From Lachnospiraceae bacterium (GTDB lineage Bacteria; Bacillota; Clostridia; Lachnospirales; Lachnospiraceae): 59,147 nt of DNA. Below are positions 14,572 through 32,075 of this stretch, in pieces. The notes under the pieces were generated by a model, which was not told the origin of the DNA, made no database searches, and worked only from the letters and a program-made list of their open reading frames with translations. Positions within the stretch are counted from its first letter, which is position 1. Each line of letters starts with the position of its first letter. Where the stretch lies: contig JAGATV010000023.1 in NCBI GenBank assembly GCA_017621075.1, forward strand, positions 1-59,147, given 5' to 3'. A program made the position numbers and the translations under genes.

Positions 14572-14612
14572 CGATTGCTCTTTATCATCTACTATTTTTA
14601 TCAGAGAAATTG

Positions 14613-14621
14613 TGATATACT
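14613..14621 (+). promoter_or_regulatory. Extended -10 promoter of the SGNH membrane protein gene
   Basis: TGA followed by TATACT at 14616-14621. RNA would start near 14628, just before AGGGAGG at about 14631-14637 and the ATG at 14648. This rules out the in-frame GTG at 14612 as a start. Confidence 0.5.
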
Positions 14622-14647
14622 ATAAAAAAATAGGGAGGCTCTCCTTT

Positions 14648-17600
14648 ATGAGACTATTTTTTTCAAAATTATATACATTATTCCATTATGTTATCCGGGG
14701 TCTTTCCCTGATCTTCACCGGGCTTCTCCTGCTTGGCGGTCTCCTGTGCACCTGTTACTGTGTGGACATGACTTCCCAGAAGGTGCTGACCCGATGGGAC
14801 AATCCCCTGATGAGTTTTCTGGGGATCGGGCTCTTCTTCCTTCTGTTTACACTATTGCAGCGCTTCGTGTGCCAAAACCCCGGCAGGAGACTTCCCATCC
14901 TTTTGGCGGGTGTGATGATCTGGTGTGCCTTTTGGGGCCTTTTGCTGATCCTGTTTAGCAAGACCGTTCCGGCAGCAGACGCCTGGTCTGTCTACTCTAT
15001 TGCAGAAGCTCTTGCCAGAGGTGACACCTCCGTGATCCATCCCACAGACTCCTATCTGTCCTATTATCCCCAGCAGGTGGGGCTGACAGCATTTTTTGAG
15101 CTTCTGATCCGGATATGGTATCTGTTTCCGGTGGATCTGCAGGCCTATCATTTCATCAAATGTGTCTATGTGGTATTGGCTTTAGTCATTATCCTGTTTC
15201 AGTACCGCACGGTGCGCCTCCTTTGGAAACAGCCGGAAGTACACTGTGCCTATCTGCTCCTGATGGGCTGCAATCTGCCCTTTATCATGTACACGTCCTT
15301 TGTCTATGGGGAAATTCCGTCCTTTGCGGCGCTGAGTACGGGAATCTACTATCTGATGAAATTTTTAAGATCCCCGTCCCCTGCTTTGGGCGGGCATCCC
15401 TCAAGGAGCAGTCTGGGATCCGGCGCACTGAGCCTGGTTTTGTTTTCTCTGTCCGTATCCCTCCGGAAAAATTCCCTGATCGTCATAATTGCCGTGGTAC
15501 TGGTGGCAGTGTTCCAGTGGATGAAGGAAAGGAAATCCTTATTTCTCCTGTATGCCCTGTTATGCGCACTTCTGAGTGCCCTGATCCTGCCTGTCACCCA
15601 GAGTTTTTATGAGCATCGCGCCCACAACACGTTAAGTTCCGGTGTAACTGCCATGTCCTATTTTGCCATGGGCATGCAGGAAGCCTCCAGAGGCCCCGGC
15701 TGGTACAACGGCTTCAACTTCGATACCTACCAGGCATCCGGCATGGATACGGAAACCGCCAATGCCATCAGCCGGGAAGCCATTTCCCAACGCCTGGAGT
15801 ATTTTGCAAGCCATCCCGACTACGCTTTTGATTTTTATCTGCACAAATACCTGACCCAGTGGATGGATGGCACTTACGCCTCCAGACAGGCCACCCTCGC
15901 CACCTTCGGCGGCAGACGGGAGGTATTTGACAGTCTGTATACCGGAACACTGGGCAGCTGGTATATTGAATACGGCAATCTTTATCAGAATATGCTCTAT
16001 CTGGGCGCCTTTCTGTTCTGCCTTTTACACGGCTTTCTGTACCGGAAACGGCAGGATGACTCCCCGGAGGGACTTCCCCTGTATCTGGGGCTCATCGCCG
16101 TGTTCGGCGGTTTCCTGTTCCATATCATGTGGGAGGCCAATTCCCGCTATATCTTTTTGTACAGCCTCTTACTGCTTCCCTATGCCGCATGGGGGCTGGG
16201 ACGGCTTCCCGATCTGATGCGCAGGCCAGGATCCGGGGCGGCCCACCGCCCTCCCAAAAGCCCTCTGCGTCTCCTGCTTAGGGCCCTTTCCCTTGCAGTG
16301 GCCTGCCTCTGCCTGATCCTCATCTTTGGCTATCTTCGGACTGCCCATTACCATTCCGATCAGTCCAGAGAGGAGGATATCCTGGCTTTGCAATCCCAGG
16401 ATTACAATGGACTGCTTTTGTCCATGTATGCCCCCGAACGCTTTGATCCTAAGGATTTTGCATACTTCCGGGGCATCCCCACCCTGAGAGCAGAACACCG
16501 TTTTGAAACCTTGACCGATATGGGAGACTATCTGCGGACAGCCTTGGACAGCGGTCAGGAGATTACAAGTGTCTACCTGGGACTGGATCCCACCATCATC
16601 GGGGAGCAGTACGGCTTCCATGCCTCCCTCTATCATCGGGAATATAAAAAACAGCTTCTTGACCTGATCAGTGCCAATCCCCAGATCAGCTTTGAGATCC
16701 TGCTTCCTTACTACTCTCTGGACTATTGGCAGGGTCTTTCCGGGGACAGACAGGAGGCTTACCTGACCTGCTATCAAAATTTTGTGAATATCTTTGCCGG
16801 GCAGCCCAATCTGACCATCTATTTCTTAGGTTATGAAGAGTGGCTCATTGCCAATCCCGGCAATTATGATGCCTACAACTCCTGCAATCCTTCCGTGACC
16901 TCCAATCTGCTGGCACTGACCTTCAAGGATACTTATTATGAACTGACTCCCGCCAACATGGAGGAGCGCCTGACTGCACTGAAATCCCTGATTGCAGGCG
17001 ATTCTTCCGATTCCGCCGACCTTTCTGCCCCTCCGGCTCTCTATGATTTTTCGGAATATGAATTTGTCTTTTTCGGGGACAGCGTCATCGGCAACTTTAC
17101 GGACAGTCTCTCAGTTCCCGGTGTGGTAGAAGGCTGCGGCAATGCCCGCACTTACAACCTGGCACAGGGTGGAACCAGTGCTGCCATGGCAGAGGACCCC
17201 TCTTCCCAGAGCCTGAACACCATCGTGGATGCCTTTCTTCAAAAAGACCCCTCCGCCCTGGACCCGGACAGCCAGCCCTTCCTGGGGCTTACGGAATATG
17301 CGGCCGACCATGACTCTGACAGCAGGACCCGACTGTGCTTTGTGATCAATTACGGTCTCAATGACTATTTCCTGGGCTATCCTGTCACTTCAAAAGACCC
17401 TCAGGATGTTTACACCTACAAGGGCAGCATCTTCACTGCCGTAAACAAGTTAAAAACCGCTTACCCGGACAGCACCATCCTTTTGTTGTCCCCCAATTTC
17501 TGCAGCTACCATGGAAACGGCACAACGCCCCAAAGCGACCGGGGCGGAATCCTCACCGATTATGTCACTGCCGTGGAGGAACTTTCGGAAGAGCTTCAGA

Positions 17601-17749
17601 CAGGCTATGTGGACAGCTACCACGACTTGGGCATCCATGCAGGAAACTATGCCGCCTATCTCTCAGACGGCTGCCATCCCAATGAGTTGGGCAGATTCCG
17701 GATGGGACAGTTGATCCTGAAAACCTTTGACGATCTGATCGCAGAGTAA
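14648..17749 (+). CDS. Giant membrane protein with C-terminal SGNH hydrolase domain
   Basis: A 1033-residue protein. Residues ~1-570 hold about a dozen helices with a GT-C-like first loop (VPAADAWSVYSIAEALARG). Residues ~600-780 form a soluble linker domain. Residues ~805-1033 form an SGNH esterase/acyltransferase-like domain with FFGDSVIGNF (Ser812), NLAQGGTS, INYGLNDYF (Asn905) and SDGCHPNE (Asp1007, His1010), so all four blocks are present. It may glycosylate and de-esterify or acylate the same surface polymer. The start ATG 14648 has AGGGAGG in front. It is monocistronic, divergent from the GT operon, and ends at the bidirectional terminator at 17770. The fusion is unusual. Confidence 0.75.
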   Translation: MRLFFSKLYTLFHYVIRGLSLIFTGLLLLGGLLCTCYCVDMTSQKVLTRWDNPLMSFLGIGLFFLLFTLLQRFVCQNPGRRLPILLAGVMIWCAFWGLLLILFSKTVPAADAWSVYSIAEALARGDTSVIHPTDSYLSYYPQQVGLTAFFELLIRIWYLFPVDLQAYHFIKCVYVVLALVIILFQYRTVRLLWKQPEVHCAYLLLMGCNLPFIMYTSFVYGEIPSFAALSTGIYYLMKFLRSPSPALGGHPSRSSLGSGALSLVLFSLSVSLRKNSLIVIIAVVLVAVFQWMKERKSLFLLYALLCALLSALILPVTQSFYEHRAHNTLSSGVTAMSYFAMGMQEASRGPGWYNGFNFDTYQASGMDTETANAISREAISQRLEYFASHPDYAFDFYLHKYLTQWMDGTYASRQATLATFGGRREVFDSLYTGTLGSWYIEYGNLYQNMLYLGAFLFCLLHGFLYRKRQDDSPEGLPLYLGLIAVFGGFLFHIMWEANSRYIFLYSLLLLPYAAWGLGRLPDLMRRPGSGAAHRPPKSPLRLLLRALSLAVACLCLILIFGYLRTAHYHSDQSREEDILALQSQDYNGLLLSMYAPERFDPKDFAYFRGIPTLRAEHRFETLTDMGDYLRTALDSGQEITSVYLGLDPTIIGEQYGFHASLYHREYKKQLLDLISANPQISFEILLPYYSLDYWQGLSGDRQEAYLTCYQNFVNIFAGQPNLTIYFLGYEEWLIANPGNYDAYNSCNPSVTSNLLALTFKDTYYELTPANMEERLTALKSLIAGDSSDSADLSAPPALYDFSEYEFVFFGDSVIGNFTDSLSVPGVVEGCGNARTYNLAQGGTSAAMAEDPSSQSLNTIVDAFLQKDPSALDPDSQPFLGLTEYAADHDSDSRTRLCFVINYGLNDYFLGYPVTSKDPQDVYTYKGSIFTAVNKLKTAYPDSTILLLSPNFCSYHGNGTTPQSDRGGILTDYVTAVEELSEELQTGYVDSYHDLGIHAGNYAAYLSDGCHPNELGRFRMGQLILKTFDDLIAE

Positions 17750-28909: not shown

Positions 28910-30289
28910 TCAGATACTATCCCCGGCTCCTTCTATTTCCTCTGACATTTCCAGGACCTCGTCTGTCACTTCATCCCTGGATATATTTTCTGCTTCGTAA
29001 TTCTGTTTTTCAAAATCCTTTGTATGTTTCTTTCTAAAATCCCGATATTCCTTACTCTTTCTGTATTGAAGAAACAGCGGCCAGGTTTCTATATCTAATG
29101 CCCTTATTTCATTGTTCAGATAAATCTCCAATAATTCATTGACCGCAGAATGCTCGTTCAAAAGGCAGGCCTTTGCCACTTTAAACTTTCCTTCCATAAC
29201 GCTTACATCATGCTGACTAATTTGCTCTTTTATTGTCTCCAGTCCATCTGCATTCTTTATGGATATCCAATAGTTTACCTGCCAGATCTCCTTGTCGGCA
29301 GTGGGAATATCATCTGATTTTTCAGCCAACAAATTCTTATAAACAAATTTGCTGATCTCCCACTCCCGATCAACCATGTGTTGGAAAGCACTTTCCTGCA
29401 AAACATTATAAATCTCCAAATTATCAGAACTGATCCTGGACATATTGAGAATAGTTCCGTAAATCATAATGTATACCAGATCAAAGGCTTTGATCAAATA
29501 CGCCTTGTCAACAGTAAGTACATCTCCCACCTTTAGATTTTCACGCTTTTTCTTATCTACGTTGTTGATATATATGGTATTTACAATCCCATTATTGTGT
29601 ACAATGATATTTCTTCGATAATATATTTCTTTAAAGTCCTCAAAAATCTCCCGGAGATTTTTGAAATCTACCTTATGCTTATCTGACAGGATCTTATACC
29701 AGTCAGAAACAGGTCTCCTCATGATTTCATCTATTTCCCTGACAAGCAAAATTTCTTTTACTGCCTCAATTTTGGAATCCATCTCCAAAATTTCGGTATA
29801 TGATAAAGTTTTGTCTTTCAGATACGCATTCGGATACGATGTAATCACATACTCAAAAACGCCCATAATAAGTTCTTCATATTTAATCAACAGCATCATC
29901 AATGTACTTTGATTCAAAATCTCTTCCCGCACACTTAGCTTCTGATACTCCTTGGCCGCCTTTGTCGGATTCATTTCCCATTTGTTGGTTTTAAAGAATT
30001 CCTCGTTCAACTTATAAGATGCCGAAAACGTTTTTTCGCTCTCACCGATTTCAATATCGGACACCAGCCTCCGAGCCACTTCCTTCACTTTCTCACCGTT
30101 TTCACCTTCCAACAATTCTTCATGATGTGAAGCCATCGCAAACAGATAGCGTTCAACTACCATTCCCGGAACATACTTCTTAATTTCCTTTTCTACACTC
30201 TTTGTAATCTTATCAACCTGGGATAAGTAGTAATCCTTTAACGATTCTATGTTTATTGTTGCGTTTTGTAATAATGATAGTAAATTCAT
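28910..30289 (-). CDS. HEPN-domain protein, predicted RNase effector of a defence cassette
   Basis: A 459-residue, mainly helical protein of no recognised family. A segment reads EIYYRRNIIVHNNGIVN, which contains R-N-I-I-V-H (Arg226, Asn227, His231), the exact R-[N/H/D]-x3-H motif of catalytic HEPN ribonucleases, inside a helix-rich region with a following YLIKAFDLVYIMIY helix. The C terminus is highly acidic. It lies 79 bases downstream of the OLD-like ATPase gene in the same direction, so the pair forms a likely sensor-effector unit. Start ATG 30289 is preferred (AGAGG upstream) over GTG 30328. Base composition is more AT-rich than in the sugar genes around it. Confidence 0.7.
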   Translation of the reverse strand: MNLLSLLQNATINIESLKDYYLSQVDKITKSVEKEIKKYVPGMVVERYLFAMASHHEELLEGENGEKVKEVARRLVSDIEIGESEKTFSASYKLNEEFFKTNKWEMNPTKAAKEYQKLSVREEILNQSTLMMLLIKYEELIMGVFEYVITSYPNAYLKDKTLSYTEILEMDSKIEAVKEILLVREIDEIMRRPVSDWYKILSDKHKVDFKNLREIFEDFKEIYYRRNIIVHNNGIVNTIYINNVDKKKRENLKVGDVLTVDKAYLIKAFDLVYIMIYGTILNMSRISSDNLEIYNVLQESAFQHMVDREWEISKFVYKNLLAEKSDDIPTADKEIWQVNYWISIKNADGLETIKEQISQHDVSVMEGKFKVAKACLLNEHSAVNELLEIYLNNEIRALDIETWPLFLQYRKSKEYRDFRKKHTKDFEKQNYEAENISRDEVTDEVLEMSEEIEGAGDSI

Positions 30290-30368
30290 AACATTCCCGC
30301 CTCTATTCTCTATTGTGTGCAAAGACACTACCTTTACCTTTCCAAATCAACCGTTCCTTTTCCCCAAA

Positions 30369-31940
30369 CTAATTCACGATCAAATCCTCCAACACCTCTG
30401 CAATCTGCTTCTCAATCAAATCAAACATTTCTGCCTTTTTAGCACTGACACACCGGATAATGTCATTTTGTATTACCTCCTCCTTCTGTGATGTTTTTCC
30501 CGACAGATATCTGAATTCTTTATGTTTTTCTTCCAACAGAGCACCATTCAGAAAGTTTTCCACTTCTCCTTCTTCCATCCTCCATAATTTTGCAATATCA
30601 TTTATTGCATAATCCTTTCCAACTGTGACAATAAATCTTTCCGGCCACGCCTCGCCTGGAAGATAACATATCCTCTTACCAATCCACCGCTCATAGTCAG
30701 GTCCCACCCTTCCTTCAAGATGATTTTTTACCTGCTTTTTGGCAATCGCATCATTCACTTGTTTATCCCCATCCAAAAAAGCCATACAATTATGTCTACC
30801 CTCACGGTAACAGGCACTTAACTGTCTGAGTACAGCCTGATCCGATCCAATGGGAATGATATTTACTCTTTCCCTCATCTGTTGGGACAAGGTTCCCAAA
30901 ACCACAGCTTTCCCCACCTCATCTTCTGTAAAGATAATCAGCTCTTTCTCTTTGCCGCCGGATAATTTTCCAAGCGCATAAGCCGAAGAAATTCCCTTGC
31001 TGATCTCAGTTTTCTGTTGATCGGATTCCACATAATATCTTGCTTCTGGAGGAAGCGAATCCAATATAGCCGCCGAATGCGTCGAACAGATCACCTGACA
31101 ATGCAATTCAAGACATATTTTTTTCAATTCTTCAACAAGGCGACGCTGCGCTTCTTCATGCAGTCCCAGCTCTATCTCATCAATTACAAGAAGGGTGTTC
31201 TTGCCTGCCGAAAACAATTCAATAAGCAATGTAAAAATAGCATTTTCACCGGCCCCCATGTTAAATCCCGAATAGTGTGCACTATTTCTATCTACCACAA
31301 AAAGTCTTCTTCTATCAACCGTTCTTAAGTCCAACGACTCATACTTGCGATTCAAGACACGGCTGGCAATTTCCAATATCTTCTGTTGGGTCTGTTCGTC
31401 TAACTTTACAGATTCAAATTTTCCGGAATAGGTTCTCTCCGTCTTTCGCTCTCCCGGCGGTACTATTCTTTGAATTCCGGAAAAGATTACATTTCTATTT
31501 GCTCTCTTTTGATACTTATTCCACTTCCCACCTTGCTTTTTATAACGTCGCTGCTGCCCGATTCCGTCAAATTCCTGCCCTTTACTTCCCCTCCAGTGAT
31601 TCACACTTTTATACCAGATTTCCACTCCTTCAATTTTATTTTCATCCGACGTCTGAATAAAGAAATCACTAAAGGTATAGTAAGTCTTATTTCGATCATA
31701 CGGGAGATATCCGCTTTCAGAATTATGGTAGGCACAACAAGCCATTGCCAGCAATGTTGATTTACCGGAACCATTTTTGCCTGCAATAGCCGAAATAGGA
31801 TAACTCATTTCCATGTAACAGCGTTTTAATCCCCGCATCATCCCCTTACTCAACTGCATACTAACCAGACTTTTGGCAGCAATATCTTTCGTAAACCACT
31901 TAAAATTGTCCTTGTCCAACTGTGAGTAACTATATCCCAT
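30369..31940 (-). CDS. OLD-like ABC ATPase with C-terminal TOPRIM-like domain
   Basis: A 523-residue protein. Walker A AIAGKNGSGKST (residues 54-61), Walker B LLVIDEIELGL (Asp254-Glu255), NMGAGENAIF in place of the ABC signature and an H-loop ICSTHSAAIL (His288) mark an AAA15/AAA21-type ATPase. The rest resembles an OLD-family TOPRIM domain: IIFTEDEVGK (Glu339/Glu341) and MAFLDGDKQ (Asp390, Asp392). Such fusions act in phage defence (OLD, GajA). The partner is the HEPN gene downstream rather than a helicase, so it is not Gabija. AGGAGG precedes the ATG; a hairpin lies just upstream. AT-rich. Confidence 0.85.
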   Translation of the reverse strand: MGYSYSQLDKDNFKWFTKDIAAKSLVSMQLSKGMMRGLKRCYMEMSYPISAIAGKNGSGKSTLLAMACCAYHNSESGYLPYDRNKTYYTFSDFFIQTSDENKIEGVEIWYKSVNHWRGSKGQEFDGIGQQRRYKKQGGKWNKYQKRANRNVIFSGIQRIVPPGERKTERTYSGKFESVKLDEQTQQKILEIASRVLNRKYESLDLRTVDRRRLFVVDRNSAHYSGFNMGAGENAIFTLLIELFSAGKNTLLVIDEIELGLHEEAQRRLVEELKKICLELHCQVICSTHSAAILDSLPPEARYYVESDQQKTEISKGISSAYALGKLSGGKEKELIIFTEDEVGKAVVLGTLSQQMRERVNIIPIGSDQAVLRQLSACYREGRHNCMAFLDGDKQVNDAIAKKQVKNHLEGRVGPDYERWIGKRICYLPGEAWPERFIVTVGKDYAINDIAKLWRMEEGEVENFLNGALLEEKHKEFRYLSGKTSQKEEVIQNDIIRCVSAKKAEMFDLIEKQIAEVLEDLIVN

Positions 31941-31971: not shown

Positions 31972-32008
31972 AAAAACACCACTGAAGGCCATAGACTTCC
32001 AGTGGTGT
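31972..32008 (-). terminator. Hairpin terminator before the ATPase gene
   Basis: ACACCACTG (31976-31984) pairs with CAGTGGTGT (32000-32008), with further partial pairing inside, followed on the minus strand by five T. It ends the capE-to-ligase operon, but also sits between the promoter at 32076-32104 and the defence ATPase gene, so regulated read-through is possible. Confidence 0.75.
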
Positions 32009-32075
32009 CACCATATTTCAATATATATCTTCCGACCCTTCCACACACTGACTGTCCCCAATAGTTTCTAGTCAA

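Follow-up and report, generated by a model that had tools for sequence, protein, structure and literature searches.

We analyzed a two-gene cassette in a 59,147-nt stretch of DNA from a Lachnospiraceae bacterium (contig JAGATV010000023.1 of assembly GCA_017621075.1; hereafter the window). Two intact open reading frames (ORFs), both on the minus strand, span positions 28910-31940. The upstream gene encodes an ABC ATPase fused to a TOPRIM domain, and the downstream gene encodes a protein with a predicted HEPN domain followed by a TPR-like helical repeat (Table 1). They are separated by 79 nt (30290-30368), where the pattern scan listed no terminator-like site. A preliminary description made from the sequence alone had proposed that the two genes form a single system, with the ATPase licensing a HEPN RNase. 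While the listed ORF of the HEPN gene opens at GTG 30328 (472 aa), ATG 30289 (459 aa) is best read as its start, because GAGGCGGG, which resembles a ribosome-binding site, ends six bases before it. This start also reproduces the residue numbering (R226, N227, and H231) of the preliminary description.

Table 1. Positions of the genes, motifs, and domains of the cassette in the window
Feature	Position	Strand	Basis
Terminator-like hairpin followed by five U	31975..32009	-	Fold, z -2.73 over the entire 138-nt stretch; absent from the pattern scan
HEC-04-like ABC ATPase fused to TOPRIM, 523 aa	30369..31940	-	PADLOC, PHROG, and Pfam matches
Walker A GKNGSGKST, residues 54-62	31755..31781	-	G54, N56, G57, G59, K60, and T62 invariant, 5/5
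Walker B LLVIDE, residues 250-255	31176..31193	-	L250 and E255 invariant, 5/5
H-loop T287-H288	31077..31082	-	Invariant, 5/5
TOPRIM glutamate E339	30924..30926	-	Invariant, 5/5
TOPRIM D390-G-D392	30765..30773	-	Invariant, 5/5
HEPN-TPR protein gene, 459 aa	28910..30289	-	ATG 30289; GTG 30328 is a longer alternative; 27-member alignment
HEPN domain, residues 108-292	29414..29968	-	
Predicted RNase motif R225-R226-N227-x3-H231, with E221 four residues before R225	29597..29617	-	Invariant, 27/27
TPR-like helical repeat, residues 289-435	28985..29425	-	

By sequence, the ATPase is closest to HEC-04, a named solo defence family, a relationship that the preliminary description had overlooked. Among the PADLOC profiles, HEC-04 gave the best match (E 1.5e-51, 173.6 bits, residues 24-440 of 523; no curated cut-off is shown for this profile), and the protein also matched PHROG 3940 (E 1e-60) and Pfam AAA_21 (E 1.8e-17). 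Besides the profile match over the whole protein, it has the ABC ATPase motifs and C-terminal TOPRIM E...DxD of HEC-04 and its homologue IbfA. These motifs, which the preliminary description had already pointed out, are invariant (of Walker B, L250 and E255) and stand in the same domain order in the window protein and four aligned relatives that are 23-61% identical to it (counted as 5/5 in Table 1). According to excerpts of PMC12111858, HEC-04 is an ABC ATPase fused to TOPRIM that protects E. coli against T4 and T5, though not against T7 or lambda, IbfA is a HEC-04 homologue, and the HEC name refers to a setting between HmaA and HmaB.

Six relatives of the ATPase, in genomes G033, G514, and G715 and on plasmids of Gordonia, Rhodococcus, and Klebsiella, all ranked HEC-04 first. 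The closest one (61% identical), in the same-genus genome G033, is solo between an AraC-like regulator gene and tsf (gene names by reading) and is followed by a terminator-like hairpin (by eye). The G715 relative lies between HmaA and HmaB, the very setting behind the HEC name. The window protein is a divergent member: its HEC-04 score is 173.6 bits, whereas the Gordonia plasmid protein, to which it is 28% identical (23% to one Klebsiella plasmid relative), reaches 671.7. It also differs in layout: the G033 copy has the single-gene layout of HEC-04/IbfA, whereas the window copy is followed by the HEPN gene; the comparison with IbfA is by description. No ATPase relative was found in viral contigs scanned with the single protein, and phage records gave one weak match. 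A separate observation concerns G514, where the HEC-04-like gene (L088:7232-8878) stands in a stretch of sugar genes, with an acetyltransferase-like gene immediately before it and a DegT-like gene farther upstream (both by reading), and where a HEC-01A/HEC-01B pair lies 1.6 kb downstream; defence genes may repeatedly settle in polysaccharide loci.

Other ATPase-containing systems fit less well. The ATPase-TOPRIM profile of retron type I-B was second best (E 1.8e-28), but no reverse transcriptase gene adjoins the ATPase gene, whose surroundings hold the Wzy-like, HEPN, and DegT genes, and an Rfam search of the window gave no match. PARIS likewise combines an ABC ATPase with TOPRIM, and the AriA profile matched at E 2.7e-18; however, HEC-04 matched far better, AriAB was not among the best 25 profiles, and the partner here is HEPN-like. 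DUF4435 is the domain of AriB, and no DUF4435 match was listed for either protein in the Pfam search (E limit 10). Library scans of the HEPN protein gave neither a helicase match, as expected of the UvrD-like Gabija partner GajB, nor an HNH match, as expected of the Septu partner PtuB. The earlier exclusion of Gabija, Septu, and PARIS is thus upheld.

The HEPN protein carries a strongly conserved motif. R226-N227-x3-H231, singled out in the preliminary description, was present in the window protein and all five relatives found without using the motif (6/6), in all 27 members of a larger alignment, and at the loci of 38 of 40 relatives; L048 and L054, which lack it, are partial frames. The motif is thus not due to chance. 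E221-x3-R225 was also invariant in the earlier alignment (6/6) and in the larger one (27/27). Since the relatives in the larger alignment were seeded on EI..RRN, which includes E221 and R225, independent evidence from it comes only from H231 and the other invariant residues. The aligned relatives are only 17-24% identical to the window protein. Two sequence features of the HEPN superfamily are present, namely Rx4-6H with a polar residue after R and an upstream Ex3[KR]. The 27-row alignment covers genome contigs except for six of 32 loci with split, cut, or partial frames (L025, L030, L043, L046, L048, and L054); plasmid and viral relatives and the G777 protein also stand outside it.

Loci of this HEPN-TPR family occur in Clostridia, Treponema, Bacteroidota, Proteobacteria, cyanobacteria, and viral contigs. 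Viral contigs gave no relative when scanned with the single HEPN protein and four when scanned with the alignment; phage records gave none. Some relatives lie near genes for type I restriction-modification HsdR (L004, L029, and L052), Abi_2 (L029), a GmrSD-type protein (L059), or integrases (L051 and L058), and the G777 gene (L090:5749-7143) adjoins terminase-like and portal-like phage genes (by reading) as prophage cargo. Several other loci had no evident defence neighbour by eye. Apart from similar cyanobacterial loci, no recurring single partner was seen. In one of these cyanobacterial loci (L005:1760-10193), genes for an Eco57I-type methylase, a 183-aa protein, the HEPN-TPR protein, and a PLD/SNF2 helicase (Pfam) form an array; L006 has a similar layout, and parts of it appear in L030 and L048 (by eye). 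Such an array may be a restriction-like system that includes a HEPN RNase.

We next asked whether the ATPase and HEPN genes travel together. The ATPase profile was run on 1355 ORFs from 41 HEPN-locus records (39 distinct loci, 32 of which have at least 1.5 kb upstream), and matches were found only in L039 and L046. In the Algibacter locus L039 (3474-8059), an ATPase with mad3 as its best profile, an ATPase-TOPRIM with PARIS AriAB as its best PADLOC profile, and the HEPN-TPR gene stand in a row, the ATPase-TOPRIM gene directly upstream of the HEPN gene. The ATPase of L046, which lies about 4 kb away from the HEPN gene, also had mad3 as its best profile, and HEC-04 was not among 25 of its 26 profiles. 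A fortieth locus (L090) had no ATPase match. Overall, no HEC-04-type ATPase was found in the 40 other HEPN loci. Conversely, the surroundings of the six ATPase relatives showed no HEPN gene of this family, and the G033 genome had no HEPN match. Of 398 genomes drawn, two had the HEPN family (E 1e-10) and at least 10 had the ATPase (E 1e-20; a lower bound, with at most three candidates scored per genome); among the matches listed, only the source genome had both. Since relatives of the two genes occur separately at the loci examined, the pair looks more like adjacent, independent genes than like parts of one machine. By the refutation test that the preliminary description had set itself, the rare co-occurrence goes against its single system.

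The strongest rival is nevertheless a genuine two-gene system for abortive infection. The ATPase would detect phage by way of DNA ends or a phage protein and would either license the HEPN RNase or hold and then release it. The shared strand, the short gap, and the lack of a listed terminator-like site between the genes speak for such a system, and excerpts of PMC3710099 describe PrrC and RloC, in which ABC domains gate a HEPN RNase domain. L039, where a different ATPase-TOPRIM gene immediately precedes a member of the same HEPN family, leaves some probability to coupling between an ATPase and this HEPN family. On the other side stand the 40 HEPN loci free of a HEC-04-type ATPase, the solo state of the 61%-identical ATPase relative, and the differing GC contents of the two genes (0.369 for HEPN and 0.412 for the ATPase), which leave this explanation unlikely, if worth keeping in sight. 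About as doubtful, or slightly more so, is a two-component version in which the ATPase-TOPRIM nuclease would itself attack nucleic acid and also switch on the separate HEPN-TPR RNase. It would be a split-gene counterpart of PrrC/RloC, where ATPase and HEPN are fused; here they are two genes, and the ATPase carries its own TOPRIM. If so, L039 would be a second example, assembled independently, in which a HEPN effector has been joined to ATPase-TOPRIM sensors. Excerpts of PMC3710099 also note HEPN beside an OLD-family ATPase within Pgl operons, and searches of the open-licence PMC literature listed no title on the present ATPase-HEPN pair.

A further question is whether the HEPN-like protein is an RNase. 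It could instead be an RNA-binding or adaptor protein, with the ATPase-TOPRIM as the sole defence effector. None of the 27 members matched a HEPN Pfam family, and the family libraries used gave no significant model for the window protein. The structural match was modest: in VIA-align, the top match of the model was a HEPN toxin, and the full-length model had no PDB match in Foldseek at E 0.001, although the lack of HEPN folds in the Foldseek lists is no proof against a HEPN fold. One uncharacterized phage protein in the viral structure library matched the HEPN domain (E 2.6e-5). The PADLOC profile RTasHEPN (DRT-associated HEPN) weakly matched 12 of the 27 members (best E 3.8e-4), and in single rescans two of seven members matched over the motif (E 0.006-0.009); the window protein itself had no match, however, and no reverse transcriptase gene lies beside the HEPN gene. 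By hhalign, the motif was in register with that of a Pfam HEPN_RiboL-PSP protein (E 0.0085, with a probability of only 4.7%). Other templates gave higher E values: 0.12 for an LA2681 HEPN member, 0.12 for a RiboL-PSP match under the Pfam cut-off, and 0.48 and 0.18 for two neighbouring proteins; the ATPase alignment gave 0.63. LA2681-type proteins combine HEPN with TPR as well (excerpts of PMC3710099), but their Pfam family PF18733 was not listed for any of the 27 members (E 0.1). The same source states that some HEPN domains are non-catalytic and that those deemed inactive have lost conserved motif residues; here, the motif is kept in nearly all loci in spite of the low overall identity, which makes a non-RNase role improbable. 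We therefore read the protein as a putative RNase on the basis of the invariant E-x3-R-[R]N-x3-H, the HEPN toxin match, the RTasHEPN and HEPN_RiboL-PSP matches, and the defence and phage genes near its relatives. The ATPase/TOPRIM and HEPN assignments of the preliminary description were borne out by the profiles and conserved motifs.

The genomic context points to a variable locus. One flank of the cassette holds a DegT aminotransferase gene (Pfam), and the other holds genes for a Wzy-like membrane protein, a Wzz-like protein, and a UDP-GlcNAc 2-epimerase. The epimerase was named by Pfam; the Wzy-like and Wzz-like proteins were named by reading and had no Pfam match at E 1e-8. The cassette thus looks to lie within a single apparent polysaccharide gene cluster; its AT-richness was confirmed, given GC contents of 0.45-0.53 in five neighbouring genes. 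About 35 nt before the ATPase start, the terminator-like hairpin probably ends the upstream polysaccharide transcript. We dropped the idea that it is a regulatory leader of the ATPase gene, since by eye the solo G033 relative has no such hairpin. A repeat search (at least 14 nt) found no pair flanking the cassette. The Wzy-like gene was matched in 26 of 61 genomes, including the source genome, and both cassette genes were absent from the stretches around it that were read in seven of the 25 other genomes; these stretches offered no clean empty site, their gene order differing beyond the Wzy-like gene. That the two genes serve polysaccharide production or regulation instead of defence would suit their position and strand within the cluster and the sugar genes read beside the G514 gene, but given the seven stretches with neither gene, and given relatives that are carried by plasmids or lie near defence and phage genes, we consider it very improbable. 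Elsewhere in the window, the gene at 14612-17749 (+), opposite in strand to its large neighbours, encodes a 1045-aa protein whose sole Pfam match at a cut-off of E 1e-8 is a GDSL lipase domain near the C-terminus.

Taken together, we favour, as the probable explanation, two separate abortive-infection genes that have come to lie next to each other in a variable polysaccharide cluster: a HEC-04-like ATPase-TOPRIM and a stand-alone HEPN RNase. The defence role first proposed is supported by family and context. For the ATPase, a solo defence function is suggested by the HEC-04 profile, the activity of HEC-04 against T4 and T5, the solo G033 copy, and the HmaA/HmaB setting in G715. From the motifs, family relations, predicted folds, and gene layout, we infer nuclease activities, triggers, an RNA target, dimerization, and co-transcription as follows. 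The two genes are probably co-transcribed. The ABC ATPase of the HEC-04-like protein would sense infection, and its fused TOPRIM nuclease would cut nucleic acid and halt phage growth unaided, like its solo relatives. The HEPN protein, from a family not yet catalogued, would act as a stand-alone ribonuclease. The TPR-like superhelix at its C-terminus, perhaps together with the variable helices at the N-terminus, may restrain the RNase or sense a phage product, and upon infection a HEPN dimer would cleave host or phage RNA.

Judged from sequence relationships, the ATPase belongs to a known kind of anti-phage ATPase, and the HEPN-TPR protein probably represents an uncatalogued RNA-cutting family. 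The locus adds a widely scattered HEPN-TPR family and hints at an effector that current defence-finding tools may overlook. If the ATPase controlled the HEPN protein, it would show a defence sensor recruiting a second, separate effector.
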